NCBI RefSeq assembly: GCF_017812015.1
Contig: NZ_JADQTN010000001.1
Location: forward strand, 908,501 to 972,500
DNA: 64,000 nt
Direction: 5' to 3'
Source of the DNA: Pontixanthobacter sp. CEM42
Lineage (GTDB): Bacteria; Pseudomonadota; Alphaproteobacteria; Sphingomonadales; Sphingomonadaceae
Positions 23,938-31,277 of this stretch are shown here, piece by piece; the first letter of the stretch is position 1; the number at the start of each line of letters is the position of its first letter. The notes beneath the pieces are model-generated. The model did not search any database and was not told the origin of the DNA. It worked only from the letters and a program-made list of their open reading frames with translations. The translations under genes and the position numbers were made by a program.

Positions 23938-25032
23938 TTAGTGGAGGCGTTCGGCGTATAGTCCGCGCTCAGTCAACATTTTTTGGACCGAATCATTGCC
24001 TTCGAAATGACCGGCACCAACCGCGAGCAAAATCGTGCCGGGCTGACCAAGACGGTTCTCCAACCACTCAGCCCAAGCGCGGTTTCTATCGGTCAGCAAC
24101 ACTTGATATACCTGCCGCCCAAACTCGGATTCTTTCATCTCTTCCATACCGAGATCTTCGAGTATTCCCTGCGCCCAACTATGTTCGGATGAGAACGGAT
24201 CGCGTGTTTCGGTTTCGGTCACTGCGGTGCCGTCCCCGGCAGCAGCGGTCCCATCCAGATCTTCAAAGAAGTCGGCGAGATTTTTGCCGTCCCATTTGCT
24301 GAGTTCTTCGTCGAGTTCCTTGATCAGACCATCTTCGTCGATACCAAGCAATGCAGCCATTACGACGCTGCTATCTTCGATCGATCCAATCGGTTTGTCA
24401 GCGGCTTTGAACTCAGCCTCCAGCACCGTCTCGACGCCGTATTCGGATACGGAGCCTTGCGCCTCTCCAAAGCTCAGTCCTGCACCAAGAAGCGAGAGCA
24501 TGAGCGGCATGCGATCGAAGAATTCTCTTGGCATGTCTACGCCATCGCCAATGGTGAACCACTTCTCGCGATTGGCTTCGGACAGCCGCTCGGAAATCGT
24601 GACGCGGTCGTCGCTCATGGTTTTTACCAGCAGATCGGCAACGAACTTGCCGACCGCTGCCTCTCCATCATCGTCGCTGGTTTCGACGACCAACTCGTCT
24701 ACCTCACCAACGATCGTATTGAACGCATCGCTGCGCCATTCGAAACCTTCGGGCAGCACATGGAACGTGCCGAACATGTAGATTGTCGTATCGCTGTCGG
24801 CCAATCGCCAGATTGCGGGATTGGGCTCGTAATTCTGGACAACGGGAACCGGAGTGGGCCGGGCGGCGACTTGCTCGGCTAGTCCGGCGGTTTCGCCTGC
24901 TTGGGCCTTCTTCTGCTCTTTCTTGAGCGCGCGCCATTCGCTTTTGCATACCTGATTATCACAATCTTGTGCGATAGCTCCCGGTGCCAGGAGCAGAGCG
25001 CTGAGAGTGATGCAGGAAGCAATTAATTTCAT
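23938..25032 (-). CDS. TraB/GumN family protein, exported (paralog 3)
   Basis: The ATG at 25032 is preferred to a GTG six bases upstream and gives 364 residues with a signal peptide (ASCITLSALLLAPGAIA). The family motifs are YMFGTFHVLPEGFEWR near residue 90 and NRAWAEWLENRLGQP, VGAGHFEGNDSV at the end. Compared with the other two copies it has an extra Lys/Glu-rich segment after the signal peptide (SEWRALKKEQKKAQAGE) and an acidic insert around residues 240-290. It is divergent from glyQ and separated from the other two paralogs by the XRE cassette. The AT-rich 3' flank (23880-23937) contains a weak CTAAAT/ATTTAG hairpin. Confidence 0.83.
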   Translation of the reverse strand: MKLIASCITLSALLLAPGAIAQDCDNQVCKSEWRALKKEQKKAQAGETAGLAEQVAARPTPVPVVQNYEPNPAIWRLADSDTTIYMFGTFHVLPEGFEWRSDAFNTIVGEVDELVVETSDDDGEAAVGKFVADLLVKTMSDDRVTISERLSEANREKWFTIGDGVDMPREFFDRMPLMLSLLGAGLSFGEAQGSVSEYGVETVLEAEFKAADKPIGSIEDSSVVMAALLGIDEDGLIKELDEELSKWDGKNLADFFEDLDGTAAAGDGTAVTETETRDPFSSEHSWAQGILEDLGMEEMKESEFGRQVYQVLLTDRNRAWAEWLENRLGQPGTILLAVGAGHFEGNDSVQKMLTERGLYAERLH

Positions 25033-25201
25033 AAACACGTCCGTTAACGGGCAAGGACCCGCATAGCGTAACTTTTTGGGTGCTTTGTCAACCGCCGGTC
25101 CGCGCTAAATTCAATATTGATGCCCATATCGCGCCCAAATTGTGCCCATATGGTGCAGTGCGGCATTGACGCATTTGGGGGCATCCGCCAAAGCCGCGCG
25201 C

Positions 25202-26125
25202 ATGGCGACCACTGCTCCATCTGTGCCGACGCGAAACCCGGCCAAATCGTTTCAGGATATGATCCTTGCACTCCATGATTTCTGGAGCGCGAATGGCTGC
25301 CTGATACTGCAGCCGTATGACATGCGGATGGGGGCGGGGACGTTCCACACCGCGACCACTCTGCGCGCGCTTGGTCCTGAGCCTTGGAACGCTGCATTCG
25401 TCCAGCCGTGCCGCCGTCCGACTGATGGGCGCTATGGCGAGAATCCGAACCGCCTACAGCATTATTACCAGTATCAGGTGATCCTGAAACCGAGCCCGTC
25501 GGACATTCAGGAATTGTACCTCAAAAGCCTCGAAGTGATCGGCATCGATCCGCTCAAACACGATATCCGCTTTGTCGAAGATGATTGGGAAAGCCCGACA
25601 CTCGGCGCCTGGGGCCTTGGTTGGGAAGTCTGGTGTGACGGGATGGAAGTCACGCAGTTCACTTATTTCCAGCAGATGGGCGGCTTTGACTGCAAGCCTG
25701 TCGCGGGCGAGTTGACCTACGGGCTCGAGCGCCTCGCAATGTATATTCAGGGCGTCGACAATGTGTACGACCTCGACTTCAATGGTCACGGGGTTTCGTA
25801 TGGCGAGGTGTTTCTCGAAAACGAAAAGCAAATGTCGAAATGGAACTTCGAAGTCGCCGACACCGATGCACTGTTCGATTTGTTCAACAAGGCGGAGGCC
25901 GAGTGCAAAAATGCACTCGCCAACGAAGTTCCGGTCGCTGCCTATGAGCAAGCGGTCGAGGCGAGCCACATCTTCAACCTTCTTCAAGCGCGCGGCGTAA
26001 TCAGCGTACAGGAACGCGCCAGTTACATGGCCCGCGTCCGCGACCTCGCGCGCGGATCTTGCGAAGCGCATATGGAGAAGGAAAAAGCCGGTTGGGCGGA
26101 GAAATATCCGGAGTGGTCGGCATGA
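25202..26125 (+). CDS. glyQ: Glycyl-tRNA synthetase alpha subunit
   Basis: GlyQ is the catalytic subunit of the alpha2beta2 glycyl-tRNA synthetase. The ATG at 25202 gives 307 residues starting MATTAPSV; the core from [19 protein letters not shown] is conserved, with [19 protein letters not shown] (motif 2 region), [20 protein letters not shown] and [12 protein letters not shown]. The C-terminus ends in EKYPEWSA. An upstream GTG could extend the protein by 20 residues but those residues look unrelated to the family. Its stop codon overlaps a short ATG-initiated reading frame inside the repeat that separates it from glyS. Confidence 0.96.
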
Positions 26126-26150
26126 ATATGTACAGCGCCACGCCCACTAT

Positions 26151-26232
26151 CGTCATTGCCGCGAAAGCGGGAATCCAGAGTGGACAAGTCAGCACTCCGA
26201 AACCCTGGATCCCCGCTTTCGCGGGAATGACG
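26151..26232. repeat. Palindromic REP-like repeat between glyQ and glyS
   Basis: Two inverted arms, CGTCATTGCCGCGAAAGCGG (26151-26170, continuing to 26178) and its near-complement at 26205-26232 (CCCCGCTTTCGCGGGAATGA inside it), enclose a 26-base spacer. This is the intergenic palindromic repeat common in sphingomonads and other alphaproteobacteria, whose translation gives the familiar IAAKAGIQ and WIPAFAGMT peptides. Here it makes a 41-codon ORF (26122-26247) that overlaps the glyQ stop as ATGA and the glyS start as TAATG. The hairpin is strong enough to affect mRNA stability between the two subunit genes. Confidence 0.85.
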
Positions 26233-26246
26233 AAGGAGGATAGCTA

Positions 26247-28553
26247 ATGGCTGATTTTCTCCTTGAGTTGAGAAGTGAAGAAATTCCCGCGCGGATGCAA
26301 AAGGGCGCGCGGGCCGAGTTGAAAAATCAGTTCTTGCGTCAACTTGAATCTGCTGGAGCAGCATCCATACTTGGCGGCGATATCACTATTTGGTCTACTC
26401 CACGCCGTCTCGCCTTGATTGCACGCGATCTACCGACCAAGACTGAGGCGGTTAGCGAAGAAGTCAAAGGGCCGCCGGAGGGCGCTCCCGATCAGGCGGT
26501 CGACGGGTTCTGCCGCAAGCTTGGCCTGTCCCGCGATCAGCTTGAAGTTCGCGACATCAAAGGCCGTCCGACATATTTCGCCGTGATCAACACACCAGGC
26601 AGGGCGGTTGCCGATGTTCTTGCCGCAGCCATCCCCGCGATCATCCGCGACTTCTCTTGGCCTAAGTCCCAGCGTTGGGGTGCTGCGTCGATCAGCACGG
26701 AAAGCCTGCGCTGGGTGCGCCCGCTGTCTGGCATTGTGGCTTTGCTCGGCACTGACGTTGTTGAGTGCGAAGTGCATGGCATCAAGAGTGGCCGCGAGAC
26801 CAAAGGGCACCGGTTCCACGGGATCAGGAAATCCGACGCGAAGTCGCGGAATTTCGGGCTACCGATCGAGTTTTTCAAGGACAAAAACCCGACTGTGCTC
26901 AACGCCAATGGCATGATCGAAATCGACAATGCCGATGACTATCAGCGCAAGCTTGCCAATGCGCATGTGATTGTGAACCACAAGCACCGCGAAGATGAGA
27001 TCAGGTTAGGTGCAGCGGCTGCTGCTAAAGGCGCCGGCCTCGATCTGGTCGAGGATGAAGGCCTTGTTGTCGAAAATGCGGGCCTGACCGAATGGCCTGT
27101 GCCGCTGCTCGGTCGGTTTGAGGATGATTTCCTCGAAGTGCCGCCCGAAACGATCCAGCTTACCGCGCGAGTGAACCAGAAGTATTTCGTGTGTGAGAAG
27201 GACGGCAAGCTTGCCAACGCCTTCATCTGCACCGCCAATATCGAAGCCGATGATCCGGCTGTGGTGGTCGAGGGCAACCGCAAAGTCCTCGCCGCGCGTC
27301 TGTCTGATGCGAAGTTCTTCTGGGATGTGGACCGGAAGAAGTCGCTTGAGGAACACGCCAAGGGCCTTGAGCGGATTACCTTCCATGAGAAGCTGGGAAC
27401 GGTTGCTGACAAGGTTGAGCGCGTTGCCAAGCTGGCGCGCTGGTTGGTCGAGGAAGGGATCGTCAAAGGCGCCAACCCGGATCAAGCCGAACAGGCCGCG
27501 CGTTTGTGCAAAGCCGACCTCGTCACCGAAATGGTCGGAGAATTCCCCGAACTGCAAGGCCTGATGGGCGGCTACTACGCCCGCGCTGAGGGTCTAGACG
27601 ATGCCGTCGCCGACGCGATCCGCGATCACTACAAACCAGTCGGGCAGGGTGATGACGTTCCGAACGCTCCGGTTACGGTCGCGGTGAGTTTAGCGGATAA
27701 ATTGGATACCCTTGCTAGCTTTTTCGTAGTTAATGAGCGTCCCACCGGATCAAAAGATCCATTCGCACTTCGCCGGGCAATGCTGGGAGTAGTGCGAATT
27801 GTGCAGTCTGCCAATCTCCGCGTCGGCTGGACGAAGCTTTTCTCGACGGCTTCTGAAGAACTTTATGAAATTCACCTAGCTTACCTTTTGACTAGCATTG
27901 GTCCGGCCGCGGAAGGCCTAGAGGCGTATCGTTGGCCCTCCCAACCAGACCAAGATGAGGAATACGGAGTGACAGCCGATGTCGTCTTTGGTTTTAGGCA
28001 GTTTGCAAAGAATCTGTCGCTCGACATTGAAGCAGCTAACGATGGGCTGAGTGCATTCCTAGTCGAACGTCTCAAAGTCCAGCAACGCGAAGCGGGCGTC
28101 CGCCACGATCTAATCGACGCGGTATTCTCTCTGGGCGGCGAAGACGACCTCGTTCGCCTTCTAGCCCGCGTCCACACTCTCCAAGCCTTCATGGAAACCG
28201 AAGACGGCACCAACCTCCTCGCTGGCTACAAACGTGCATCCAACATTCTGAAGAAGGAAGAGTGGACCGAGGCCAAGAACAACTCTGTGTCCTACACTCC
28301 CGAAACCGCAGAGAAGGCGCTCATCGACGCGCTTGATGTTGCGCAGCCCAAAGCTGCCGCAGCTATTGAAAGCGAAGATTTCGAAACGGCAATGGTGCAG
28401 CTTGCCAGCCTGCGCGCGCCGGTCGATGCGTTTTTTGAGGATGTGACGGTCAATGATGATGATGCGGATAAACGTGCGGCGCGGCTCGATCTGTTGCTCA
28501 GGTTCCGCAACGCTGTCCATCAGGTCGCCGATTTCTCTCGTATCGAGGGATAG
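26247..28553 (+). CDS. glyS: Glycyl-tRNA synthetase beta subunit
   Basis: GlyS binds tRNA and supports catalysis by GlyQ. The start ATG at 26247 follows GGAGGA by about seven bases. The core is clear: LLELRSEEIPARMQ at the start, TPRRLALIARDLP, QRWGAASISTESLRWVRPL, EDEGLVVENAGLTEWPVPLL, DAKFFWDVDRKKSLEEH and SLADKLDTLASFF. At 768 residues it is longer than the usual 690-700. The excess is an insert of roughly 50 residues around 535-600 (after LRRAMLGVVRIV, including PAAEGLEAYRWPSQPDQDEE). The C-terminal anticodon-binding domain (GEDDLVRLLARVHTLQAF) is intact. It is followed by ppdK after a 60-base gap. Confidence 0.95.
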   Translation: MADFLLELRSEEIPARMQKGARAELKNQFLRQLESAGAASILGGDITIWSTPRRLALIARDLPTKTEAVSEEVKGPPEGAPDQAVDGFCRKLGLSRDQLEVRDIKGRPTYFAVINTPGRAVADVLAAAIPAIIRDFSWPKSQRWGAASISTESLRWVRPLSGIVALLGTDVVECEVHGIKSGRETKGHRFHGIRKSDAKSRNFGLPIEFFKDKNPTVLNANGMIEIDNADDYQRKLANAHVIVNHKHREDEIRLGAAAAAKGAGLDLVEDEGLVVENAGLTEWPVPLLGRFEDDFLEVPPETIQLTARVNQKYFVCEKDGKLANAFICTANIEADDPAVVVEGNRKVLAARLSDAKFFWDVDRKKSLEEHAKGLERITFHEKLGTVADKVERVAKLARWLVEEGIVKGANPDQAEQAARLCKADLVTEMVGEFPELQGLMGGYYARAEGLDDAVADAIRDHYKPVGQGDDVPNAPVTVAVSLADKLDTLASFFVVNERPTGSKDPFALRRAMLGVVRIVQSANLRVGWTKLFSTASEELYEIHLAYLLTSIGPAAEGLEAYRWPSQPDQDEEYGVTADVVFGFRQFAKNLSLDIEAANDGLSAFLVERLKVQQREAGVRHDLIDAVFSLGGEDDLVRLLARVHTLQAFMETEDGTNLLAGYKRASNILKKEEWTEAKNNSVSYTPETAEKALIDALDVAQPKAAAAIESEDFETAMVQLASLRAPVDAFFEDVTVNDDDADKRAARLDLLLRFRNAVHQVADFSRIEG

Positions 28554-28613
28554 AATTTTAGCGCATGGACCCTGTTCCATGTGTTCCATCGTGTAGGATT
28601 TTCCGAGGTAGAT

Positions 28614-31277
28614 ATGGTCCAGACAGTCTATAATTTCGGCGGCGGTGCGATCAACGATGATCCGCGCGCCAAGGATAAGACCATAACCGGAGGGAAGGGA
28701 TCAAACCTGACCGAAATGGCCGAGATCGGTCTACCGGTTCCTCCCGGCTTCACGATCACCACCGAAGAGTGCGTAAAATACCTCGCAGGCGGATCAGACT
28801 TCTCGGCGGAACTGCGTAGTGACGTCGCGGCGGCGCTTCAGTACATCGAAACTGCGGTCGGTAAGTCATTGGGCAACAATGATGATCCGCTGTTAGTGTC
28901 CGTCCGTTCGGGGGCGCGGGTGTCGATGCCCGGTATGATGGATACGGTCCTCAATCTGGGACTAAATGACGCCACGGTGCAAGGCCTTGCCAAAGTGTCC
29001 GGCGACGAGCGTTTCGCATGGGATAGCTACCGCCGGTTCATCCAAATGTATTCTGACGTCGTTCTCGAAGTCGATCATGGACTGTTCGAGGAAGCCCTCG
29101 AAATCGCCAAGGAAGACAAGGGTTTCTACAACGATACCGAGATGGAAGCTGAAGACTGGCAGGCGTTGGTTTCGGAATATAAGGGCATCGTACAGGACGA
29201 GCTCGGTCAGCCGTTCCCGCAAGACGTCAATGAGCAGCTGTGGGGCGCAATCTCTGCAGTGTTCGACAGCTGGGATAGCGACCGGGCGAAAGTCTATCGC
29301 CGGTTGAATGATATTCCGGCGGATTGGGGCACTGCAGTCAATGTGCAGGCGATGGTATTCGGCAATATGGGCGACACCAGCGCGACCGGCGTGGCGTTCA
29401 CCCGCGACCCCGCGACGGGCGAGAAAGCCTATTACGGCGAGTGGCTGGTCAATGCCCAGGGTGAGGACGTCGTCGCAGGCATTCGCACACCGCAATATCT
29501 GACCAAAGCCGCGCGCGAAAAAGCCAACGCCAAGCCGCTGAGCATGGAAGAGGCAATGCCCGCTGCCTATGGCGAGTTGGCTGCTGTGTTCGAGCTGCTC
29601 GAGAAGCATTACCGCGACATGCAGGACATCGAATTTACCGTGCAGGACGGCAAATTGTGGATGTTGCAGACGCGCTCCGGCAAACGCACCGCCAAAGCTG
29701 CGCTGAAAATGGCGGTCGATATGGCTGGTGAGGGTTTGATCGACGAGAAGGAAGCTATTCTGCGCGTCGACCCGATGGCGCTCGACCAGTTGCTCCACCC
29801 GACGCTCGATCCCAAGGCGCATCGCGATATTCTGACGACCGGTTTGCCTGCGTCGCCAGGCGCGGCGTCTGGCACGATTGTGCTGGACGCAGACAAAGCC
29901 GAACAATTGTCCAACGCAGGCGAGAAGGTCATTCTTTGCCGCGTTGAAACCAGCCCTGAAGACATTCACGGCATGCACGCCGCGCAGGGTATTCTGACTG
30001 CGCGCGGCGGCATGACGAGCCATGCTGCGGTGGTTGCTCGTGGAATGGGGCGGCCCTGTGTTTCAGGTGCCTCGGCTGTCTCCATCGATATGACGTCAAG
30101 AAGTCTTCGTATCGGAAATCGCGAGTTAAATGAAGGTGATACGCTCACGCTAGACGGCGCAACCGGTCAAGTCATGGCTGGCCAAGTCCGCACGATCGAG
30201 CCCGAAATGGCGGGTGATTTCGGCGTGCTGATGGAGTGGGCCGACAAATACCGCCGGATGCGTGTCCGTACAAATGCCGAGACACCAAATGATTGCCGGA
30301 TGGCGCGTCAGTTTGGGGCCGAGGGTATCGGCCTGTGCCGCACAGAGCACATGTTCTTCGACGCGAGCCGGATCAGTGCCGTGCGCGAGATGATCCTTGC
30401 CGAAAGCGAGCAGGGGCGCCGCGATGCGCTGGCTAAGCTACTGCCAGAGCAACGCAGCGATTTCCGCGAGATATTCGAAGTTATGGTCGGACTGCCATGC
30501 ACAATTCGCCTGTTAGATCCGCCACTGCACGAATTCCTGCCGCATGGTGATGCTGAATTTGCCGAATTGGCGAAGGTCACCGGCCATGACGTCGATCATT
30601 TGAAGCGTCGCGCAGGGGAATTGCACGAGTTCAACCCGATGTTGGGTCACCGTGGTTGTCGCCTTGGCATAACCTACCCAGAAATTTACGAGATGCAGGC
30701 GCGCGCAATCTTCGAAGCGGCGTGTGACGTCGCGAAGGCATCGGGTGAAGCACCTGTGCCCGAAGTGATGGTTCCTTTGGTCGCTACCAAGCGAGAACTC
30801 GAGATATTACGCGCACTTATCAACCGAACCGCAAAAGATGTCTTTGCCGAAAAAGGCACCGAAATCAACTATCTTGTCGGCACCATGATAGAATTGCCGC
30901 GCGCTGCATTGATGGCAGACAAGATTGCGGAGGAAGCACGCTTCTTCTCGTTCGGCACCAATGATCTTACGCAGACCACACTGGGTGTGTCTCGCGATGA
31001 TTCCGCTCGCTTCCTTGCGCCGTATACCGACCAAGGGATTTTTGAGCGTGATCCGTTTGTGAGCCTCGATATCGAAGGCGTCGGACAATTGGTTGAATTG
31101 GCTGCGGAACGCGGCCGTGCAACGCGCCCGGATATCAAGCTAGGCATATGCGGCGAACATGGCGGCGATCCGGCGAGTATCGAGTTCTGCGATAAGGTTG
31201 GCTTGGACTATGTCAGCGCTTCGCCATATCGCGTGCCGATTGCGCGATTGGCAGCGGCGCAATCCTCGTTAAAGTAA
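28614..31277 (+). CDS. ppdK: Pyruvate, phosphate dikinase
   Basis: PPDK interconverts pyruvate, ATP and phosphate with phosphoenolpyruvate, AMP and pyrophosphate, giving a reversible gluconeogenic link to enolase. The ATG at 28614 has GAGG eight bases upstream and gives 887 residues, the normal length. The ATP-grasp domain begins TGGKGSNLTEMAEIGLPVPPG, the phosphohistidine loop is GGMTSHAAVVARGMGRPCV near residue 465, and the PEP-binding barrel ends with LGICGEHGGDPASIEFCDKV containing the catalytic Cys. It converges with the methyltransferase-like gene with one base between stop codons. No regulator gene (PDRP) is adjacent. Confidence 0.96.
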   Translation: MVQTVYNFGGGAINDDPRAKDKTITGGKGSNLTEMAEIGLPVPPGFTITTEECVKYLAGGSDFSAELRSDVAAALQYIETAVGKSLGNNDDPLLVSVRSGARVSMPGMMDTVLNLGLNDATVQGLAKVSGDERFAWDSYRRFIQMYSDVVLEVDHGLFEEALEIAKEDKGFYNDTEMEAEDWQALVSEYKGIVQDELGQPFPQDVNEQLWGAISAVFDSWDSDRAKVYRRLNDIPADWGTAVNVQAMVFGNMGDTSATGVAFTRDPATGEKAYYGEWLVNAQGEDVVAGIRTPQYLTKAAREKANAKPLSMEEAMPAAYGELAAVFELLEKHYRDMQDIEFTVQDGKLWMLQTRSGKRTAKAALKMAVDMAGEGLIDEKEAILRVDPMALDQLLHPTLDPKAHRDILTTGLPASPGAASGTIVLDADKAEQLSNAGEKVILCRVETSPEDIHGMHAAQGILTARGGMTSHAAVVARGMGRPCVSGASAVSIDMTSRSLRIGNRELNEGDTLTLDGATGQVMAGQVRTIEPEMAGDFGVLMEWADKYRRMRVRTNAETPNDCRMARQFGAEGIGLCRTEHMFFDASRISAVREMILAESEQGRRDALAKLLPEQRSDFREIFEVMVGLPCTIRLLDPPLHEFLPHGDAEFAELAKVTGHDVDHLKRRAGELHEFNPMLGHRGCRLGITYPEIYEMQARAIFEAACDVAKASGEAPVPEVMVPLVATKRELEILRALINRTAKDVFAEKGTEINYLVGTMIELPRAALMADKIAEEARFFSFGTNDLTQTTLGVSRDDSARFLAPYTDQGIFERDPFVSLDIEGVGQLVELAAERGRATRPDIKLGICGEHGGDPASIEFCDKVGLDYVSASPYRVPIARLAAAQSSLK

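Follow-up and report, generated by a model that had tools for sequence, protein, structure and literature searches.

An open reading frame bridging glyQ and glyS in Pontixanthobacter, and the fate of inserts at this junction in related bacteria

We analysed a 64,000-nucleotide (nt) stretch of the Pontixanthobacter sp. CEM42 genome (contig NZ_JADQTN010000001.1; hereafter the window), in which glyQ and glyS, the genes for the two subunits of glycyl-tRNA synthetase, are joined by a short open reading frame (ORF) running through a palindromic repeat. The genome comprises 3.08 Mb in two contigs, and its closest named GlyQ matches come from Qipengyuania (95%) and an uncultured Erythrobacter (92%). 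The glyQ stop codon TGA occupies positions 26123-26125 and the glyS ATG lies at 26247, leaving a spacer of 121 nt. An earlier note on this DNA had described an ORF of 41 codons whose ATG at 26122 overlaps the glyQ stop as ATGA and whose TAA (26245-26247) shares a base with the glyS start as TAATG, and both overlaps were confirmed in the sequence (Table 1). Bridging ORFs of this kind recur far beyond chance, and we found them in dozens of related bacteria.

Table 1 Features of the glyQ-glyS junction (positions in the window)
Feature	Position	Strand	Basis
glyQ, glycyl-tRNA synthetase alpha subunit	25202..26125	+	ORF; Pfam PF02091, 4.3e-144
GGAG, Shine-Dalgarno-like, inside the 3' end of glyQ, 8 nt before ATG 26122	26110..26113	+	sequence
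Bridging ORF, 41 codons	26122..26247	+	sequence, ORF, comparison with relatives
CGTC-tagged palindromic repeat, inverted dimer	26151..26232	+	genome copies; predicted hairpin; comparison with the available text of PMC3733652
AAGGAGG, Shine-Dalgarno-like, 7 nt upstream of the displaced glyS ATG	26233..26239	+	sequence
glyS, glycyl-tRNA synthetase beta subunit	26247..28553	+	Pfam PF02092, 4.6e-176; comparison with relatives

The repeat itself is an ordinary one. Its two 28-nt arms (26151-26178 and 26205-26232) form an inverted pair with CGTC at both outer ends and ATCCAG/CTGGAT inside, and the insert extends beyond it by about 25 nt upstream and 14 nt downstream. The available text of PMC3733652 defines CGTC-tagged repetitive extragenic palindromic (REP) sequences as short palindromes that have CGTC at one end and a CCA-type tail. 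A 126-nt query gave 33 matches in the genome at only 17 places, its own site included (places counted by eye), because palindromic copies match both strands; at nine of the 16 other places both-strand matches span about 80 nt, in keeping with the dispersed and mostly inverted dimers of that class. Matches to the other copies mostly end at the ends of the repeat, with a single copy (L100) aligning, weakly, across the 5' flank. The RNA of positions 26090-26275 is predicted to form a strong hairpin (-82.9 kcal/mol, z -6.2), and no Rfam match was found in positions 25000-28700 at the gathering threshold.

Where the bridging ORF begins was settled by comparison within the genus. In all six relatives with a readable junction (L004-L009; a seventh genus member had no GlyQ match and was left out) no insert intervenes, and glyQ shares a direct ATGA overlap with glyS (gap -4). 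Since the relatives overlap in this way, the ATG of the bridging ORF corresponds to the ancestral glyS start with its native ribosome-binding site, and the glyS start has been displaced 125 nt downstream of its old position. The GGAG within glyQ is the Shine-Dalgarno (SD)-like site of the ancestral glyS start, now serving the bridging ORF, and CCGGAGTGG precedes the glyS ATG also in most of the insert-free relatives whose bases were printed. The insert displaced the glyS start and brought the new AAGGAGG with it. The earlier proposal that the repeat creates the ORF needs correcting at the 5' end, which is the ancestral glyS start codon and no product of the repeat.

Taken alone, the bridging ORF is weak evidence for anything but chance: when the 121-nt spacer was shuffled 5000 times by dinucleotides, 241 of the products likewise gave a stop within -3 to +8 nt of the glyS ATG. 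It is the comparison with related junctions that turns the overlaps, singled out earlier as notable, into strong evidence. We took 290 glyQ-glyS loci, of which 281 could be parsed by tblastn and nine could not (earlier, motif-based parsing had missed 17 loci). The same-family set comprised 209 parsed junctions (210 loci from 291 genomes with a match): 133 were tight, 55 carried 60-300 nt, 12 carried 301-650 nt, five carried 30-59 nt, three were odd and one had no recognised start. In every one of the 55 junctions with 60-300 nt, the frame opened by the old glyS start codon (ATG in 27, GTG in 28) remained open through the insert and stopped between -1 and +8 nt from the new glyS start; 11 of the 12 longer inserts bridged as well. 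No insert with a broken frame, which by the earlier note would have pointed to an accident, was found among these 55. The rule was written down after a first set, which also held 55 inserts of 60-300 nt when same-family and named loci were taken together; the same-family 55 are made up of 38 from this first set and 17 from a held-out sample. The latter was made up of 60 additional loci, namely the top 30 of each of two lists that spanned 141 further genomes, and in it 17/17 inserts of 60-300 nt bridged, as did all six DUF559-type inserts of 451-475 nt.

For frame statistics we used 60 sphingomonad inserts, 53 same-family and seven named. Before these statistics and the tree described below, 38 named loci that by eye looked distant or outside the sphingomonads were set aside; two of them (L145 and L175) are titled Sphingomonas, and excluding L145 does not favour our claim, since its insert bridges. 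One locus titled Arthrobacter (L126) was kept as sphingomonad because its GlyQ is 81% identical. Loci were further dropped as duplicates (L111, L257, L260, L295), as too short or misparsed (L227, L300), for lack of a recognised start (L082) or for a gap below -60 (L177, L232, L257, L274). The old-start frame was open in all 60 inserts, against an expectation of 27.6 from shuffles, while the glyQ frame was open in 15, the third sense frame in 18 and the three antisense frames in 23, 27 and 34. With one insert per class of similar DNA, the old-start frame was open in 32/32 against 14.6 expected, and with random phase only 5.9 of the 32 classes would be expected to bridge.

The phase of the inserts carries a further signal. 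The old start and glyS are out of phase in every insert (remainders 0, 1 and 2 in 0, 24 and 36 inserts), and the second codon of glyS covaries with the remainder: it is NCT in 23 of the 24 remainder-1 inserts, where the frame stops at ATGNNTGA (the exception is L245), and begins with A in 35 of the 36 remainder-2 inserts, where the frame stops at ATGA (Fisher 5e-10 and 5e-11). In total, 34 of the 60 overlaps are ATGA and 23 are ATGNNTGA. The architecture is also kept as inserts diverge, namely between L254 and L283 (77% identical, gap-free over 475 nt), between L222 and L229 (93% identical over 151 nt) and between L131 and L133, which are separated by gaps of 5, 2 and 1 and have their stops at +4 and -2. 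That stop and start overlap in all cases, and that the second codon matches, argues that the overlap itself is under selection.

The inserts are unrelated to one another to a large degree. They include CGTC-type repeats, other repeats and DUF559-family ORFs, and by DNA similarity they fall into 38 classes, nine shared and 29 single. A 234-row tree (FastTree) requires at least 56 changes of insert state, an approximate count. DUF559 ORFs lie in 13 glyQ-glyS spacers (L118, L125, L127, L209, L213, L218, L238, L249, L254, L283, L297, L303 and L308), an assignment that comes from a Pfam run on L125 alone (1.3e-30) and from DNA similarity for the remaining loci. A Caulobacter DUF559 protein is termed Vsr-like in the available text of PMC12907096. 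These ORFs, like one in a trpB-trpA spacer (L366), are framed by a CCTCCCC/GGGGAGGA palindrome, and short forms having the palindrome without the nuclease occupy the same spot in L132, L221 and L292; such inserts could represent a mobile element that carries a nuclease, together with shortened derivatives of it. Most DUF559-type inserts close with GGGGAGGAT, which lies a few bases upstream of the glyS start and offers a ready-made ribosome-binding site. At the left edge, NTGATG occurs in 31 of the 60 inserts and in none of 122 tight junctions, reflecting either two starts in tandem in the same frame or a vestige of how insertion took place. Among individual inserts, the 5' part of L285 resembles, by eye, the 3' end of a tRNA gene, and the spacers of L112 (805 nt) and L120 (777 nt) contain long extra ORFs that overlap both neighbours, with stops at +1 and +8.

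Other gene junctions were examined for comparison, using the nearest genomes for glyQ-glyS and the mre junctions and an evenly drawn set for pheST and trpBA. No gap above 20 nt was found in 89 mreC-mreD, mreD-mrdA and mrdA-rodA junctions of the 30 nearest loci, or in 30 pheS-pheT junctions, whereas glyQ-glyS had 10 inserts among its 30 nearest loci; the idea that all overlapping gene pairs are invaded was rejected on these counts. The trpB-trpA pair, a classic case of translational coupling, behaved more like glyQ-glyS: 19 of 30 junctions were tight, and all six inserts of 43-177 nt (L342, L345, L347, L358, L361 and L362) contained an ORF overlapping both genes. The bridging ORFs of L361 and L362 resemble small membrane proteins rather than repeats. 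Among three longer trpB-trpA inserts, that of L366 forms, by eye, a two-ORF relay through the DUF559-like ORF; one locus (L363) was unparsed. At a third junction of the genus (G000:C1 near 760733, and relatives, L399-L405), sister species carry different inserts. Read by eye, two of the five (L401 and L405) bridge exactly; L404 is tight, and L400 has another gene next to it, with the usual downstream gene not nearby.

These observations suggest the following scenario. In the ancestor, ribosomes finishing glyQ would have restarted at once on the ATGA overlap to make GlyS. Repeat DNA would then have entered at the start/stop site and shifted the beginning of glyS downstream. The old start codon, which kept its native ribosome-binding site, would open a short frame through the insert. 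Because this frame stops atop the new glyS start, ribosomes could be relayed from glyQ to the mini-ORF and on to glyS; the peptide sequence would be irrelevant, and what would count is translatability, the right phase and an end at the glyS start. According to the available text of PMC10666635, reinitiation in Escherichia coli falls by 80-100% when the gap is 38 nt. Since coupling fails as the gap grows, an insert of 100 nt would be expected to separate GlyS synthesis from that of GlyQ, except where the old-start frame ends at the new start. The same text reports that overlapping gene pairs are enriched in subunits of complexes, and the benefit here would presumably lie in balanced alpha and beta subunits. 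We therefore favour, with a probability of roughly 80%, the reading that inserts persist at this junction only where a relay ORF preserves termination-reinitiation coupling; translation of the mini-ORF, reinitiation and the benefit are inferred from sequence comparison. The suggestion that the ORF provides a translational path between the subunit genes is strongly supported in so far as the path is no accident, reinitiation being the inferred step.

A number of observations weigh against this reading, in whole or in part. In the same family, the first ORF of L225 stops 160 nt short of glyS and a second ORF completes the relay; this second ORF starts MSDFL, like GlyS, which suggests a second insertion into the glyS start. 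Two relay ORFs are stacked in L366 as well. The 44-nt insert of L292 is fused in frame to glyS, and the 49 nt of L227 probably reflect faulty parsing or a misread glyQ frame. Of the 17 inserts of 60-300 nt in named loci, 12 bridge and five fail (L146, L147, L161, L165 and L181, with GlyQ 66-73% identical and titles of Anderseniella, Roseomonas or only 'Alphaproteobacteria bacterium'); of those of 301-650 nt two bridge and three fail, and of those above 650 nt two bridge and four fail. At trpB-trpA, the longer inserts of L346 and L368 do not bridge, and in L359 the overlap start opens straight into trpA, with no separate trpA start. At the third junction, the frames of L399 and L403 stop 8-11 nt short and the insert of L402 does not bridge (all by eye). 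One held-out sequence (L295) duplicates that of L131 in the first set, which leaves 16 new sequences among the 17. The locus in the window is itself the sole codon-2 exception among the remainder-2 inserts, using TAATG just before glyS instead. Finally, the new glyS start has its own and slightly better SD sequence (mean match 4.22 versus 3.61), and independent initiation of glyS from it is possible.

Another account of the same data is a mobile element of the MIRU kind (mycobacterial interspersed repetitive unit), which carries a built-in ORF and targets start/stop overlaps, so that bridging would come from insertion and not from later selection. MIRUs are described in this way in the available text of a 2025 review (PMC12548453), and both the NTGATG left edge and the GGGGAGGAT end of most DUF559-type inserts fit such an element; for the DUF559 class this insertion mechanism may hold. 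As a general explanation we consider it unlikely, given that the inserts spread over 38 classes and that the repeat in the window has non-bridging copies in its own genome, with matches mostly confined to the repeat.

Slightly less probable again is that mini-ORF ribosomes merely shield the transcript, preventing Rho from ending transcription before glyS, which would then use its own SD sequence. The inserts are indeed long and structured, with a fold z below -2 in 54 of 60, and the SD match of glyS is slightly longer in insert loci; yet such a shield would work without a stop placed -2 to +8 nt from the start, and equally without the covariation of codon 2 with phase. We also tried the idea that the ORF exists on account of a hidden glyS ribosome-binding site, and rejected it: the mean predicted unpaired probability is 0.35 with inserts and 0.36 without. 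The hairpin had been suspected of disrupting coupling, and the group as a whole gives no sign of a hidden glyS site; the predicted value in this genome is lower (0.28), and here AAGGAGG pairs with codons at the start of glyS in the predicted fold.

An accident, in which stop-poor palindromic repeats leave an open frame with neat ends by chance or as a property of the element, is very unlikely. It draws on the shuffle probability of 0.048 for this locus alone and on the many open antisense frames. Against it stand the far lower counts for the other two sense frames beside 60/60 over 32 classes, the family-wide and held-out counts, and three copies of the repeat that lie elsewhere in this genome between genes of one direction: L093 and L102, at pairs not known to have overlapped ancestrally, fail to bridge, and the frame of L101 stops 8 nt short. 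That the 41-codon ORF encodes a functional, conserved small protein is scarcely credible and was rejected: it retains the ancestral glyS initiation site and is plausibly translated, but its peptides differ between lineages and the four tested had no Pfam match at 0.01.

Overall, the earlier interpretation of this junction is partly supported. Beyond the relay, we tentatively propose, at somewhat less than even odds, that coupled subunit junctions such as glyQ-glyS and trpB-trpA act in sphingomonads as a natural trap, which unrelated mobile repeats, including elements with DUF559 (Vsr-like) nucleases whose ends bring a ribosome-binding site, repeatedly enter at NTGA and where only copies providing a relay ORF survive. 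The importance of subunit-gene coupling in vivo has been argued mostly from reporters and gene spacing. Here, unrelated DNA has broken into such an overlap dozens of times, a repeated natural experiment that makes a direct and testable case for selection. Repeat-derived peptides of the 'PAFAGMT' type, commonly dismissed as junk, may likewise be translated relays. A search of the open-access literature, by title or the start of the abstract, found no paper on the glyQ-glyS junction.

Several known systems invite comparison. The repeat resembles the CGTC-tagged REPs of Di Nocera et al. 2013 (PMC3733652) in its CGTC outer ends, short palindromic stem, CCA-like tail, inverted dimer and alphaproteobacterial host, setting aside the head-to-head sense of that paper. 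It differs in its setting: the available text places REPs near or inside ORFs and describes neither bridging ORFs nor coupling, and the word 'operon' occurs 0 times in the main text. MIRUs, as reviewed in the available text of PMC12548453, insert at start codons between genes, and the ORF inside them is coupled, at -4 spacing, to the gene that follows. The locus in the window likewise received its insert at the start codon of an overlapping pair, but its overlap with glyS is TAATG, of the -1 type and not -4; we do not file it as a MIRU, although it would work like one, the likeness drawn here being one of architecture. MIRUs are, moreover, one repeat family with a built-in ORF, whereas glyQ-glyS has 38 insert classes at a single junction, uses the displaced old start codon and shows a glyS codon 2 that covaries with phase. 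Rickettsia palindromic elements (RPEs), which PMC2759123 mentions, are similar as palindromic repeats that stay translatable. They lie in frame inside protein genes, whereas in-frame fusion to GlyS is rare at glyQ-glyS (L292). Two RPE families are CGTC repeats, according to the available text of PMC3733652. The short intergenic ORF mgtQ, between mgtC and mgtB of Salmonella, also affects translation of the next gene, but to judge by the headings of PMC8092293 it is a regulatory ORF relying on particular residues and stem-loops, and the available text of that paper does not mention repeats. The overlap geometry is the same in termination-reinitiation at ATGA and TAATG overlaps, often between subunits of a complex (available text of PMC6728339 and PMC10666635), which is described there for direct gene overlaps and which glyQ-glyS would carry through an inserted ORF.

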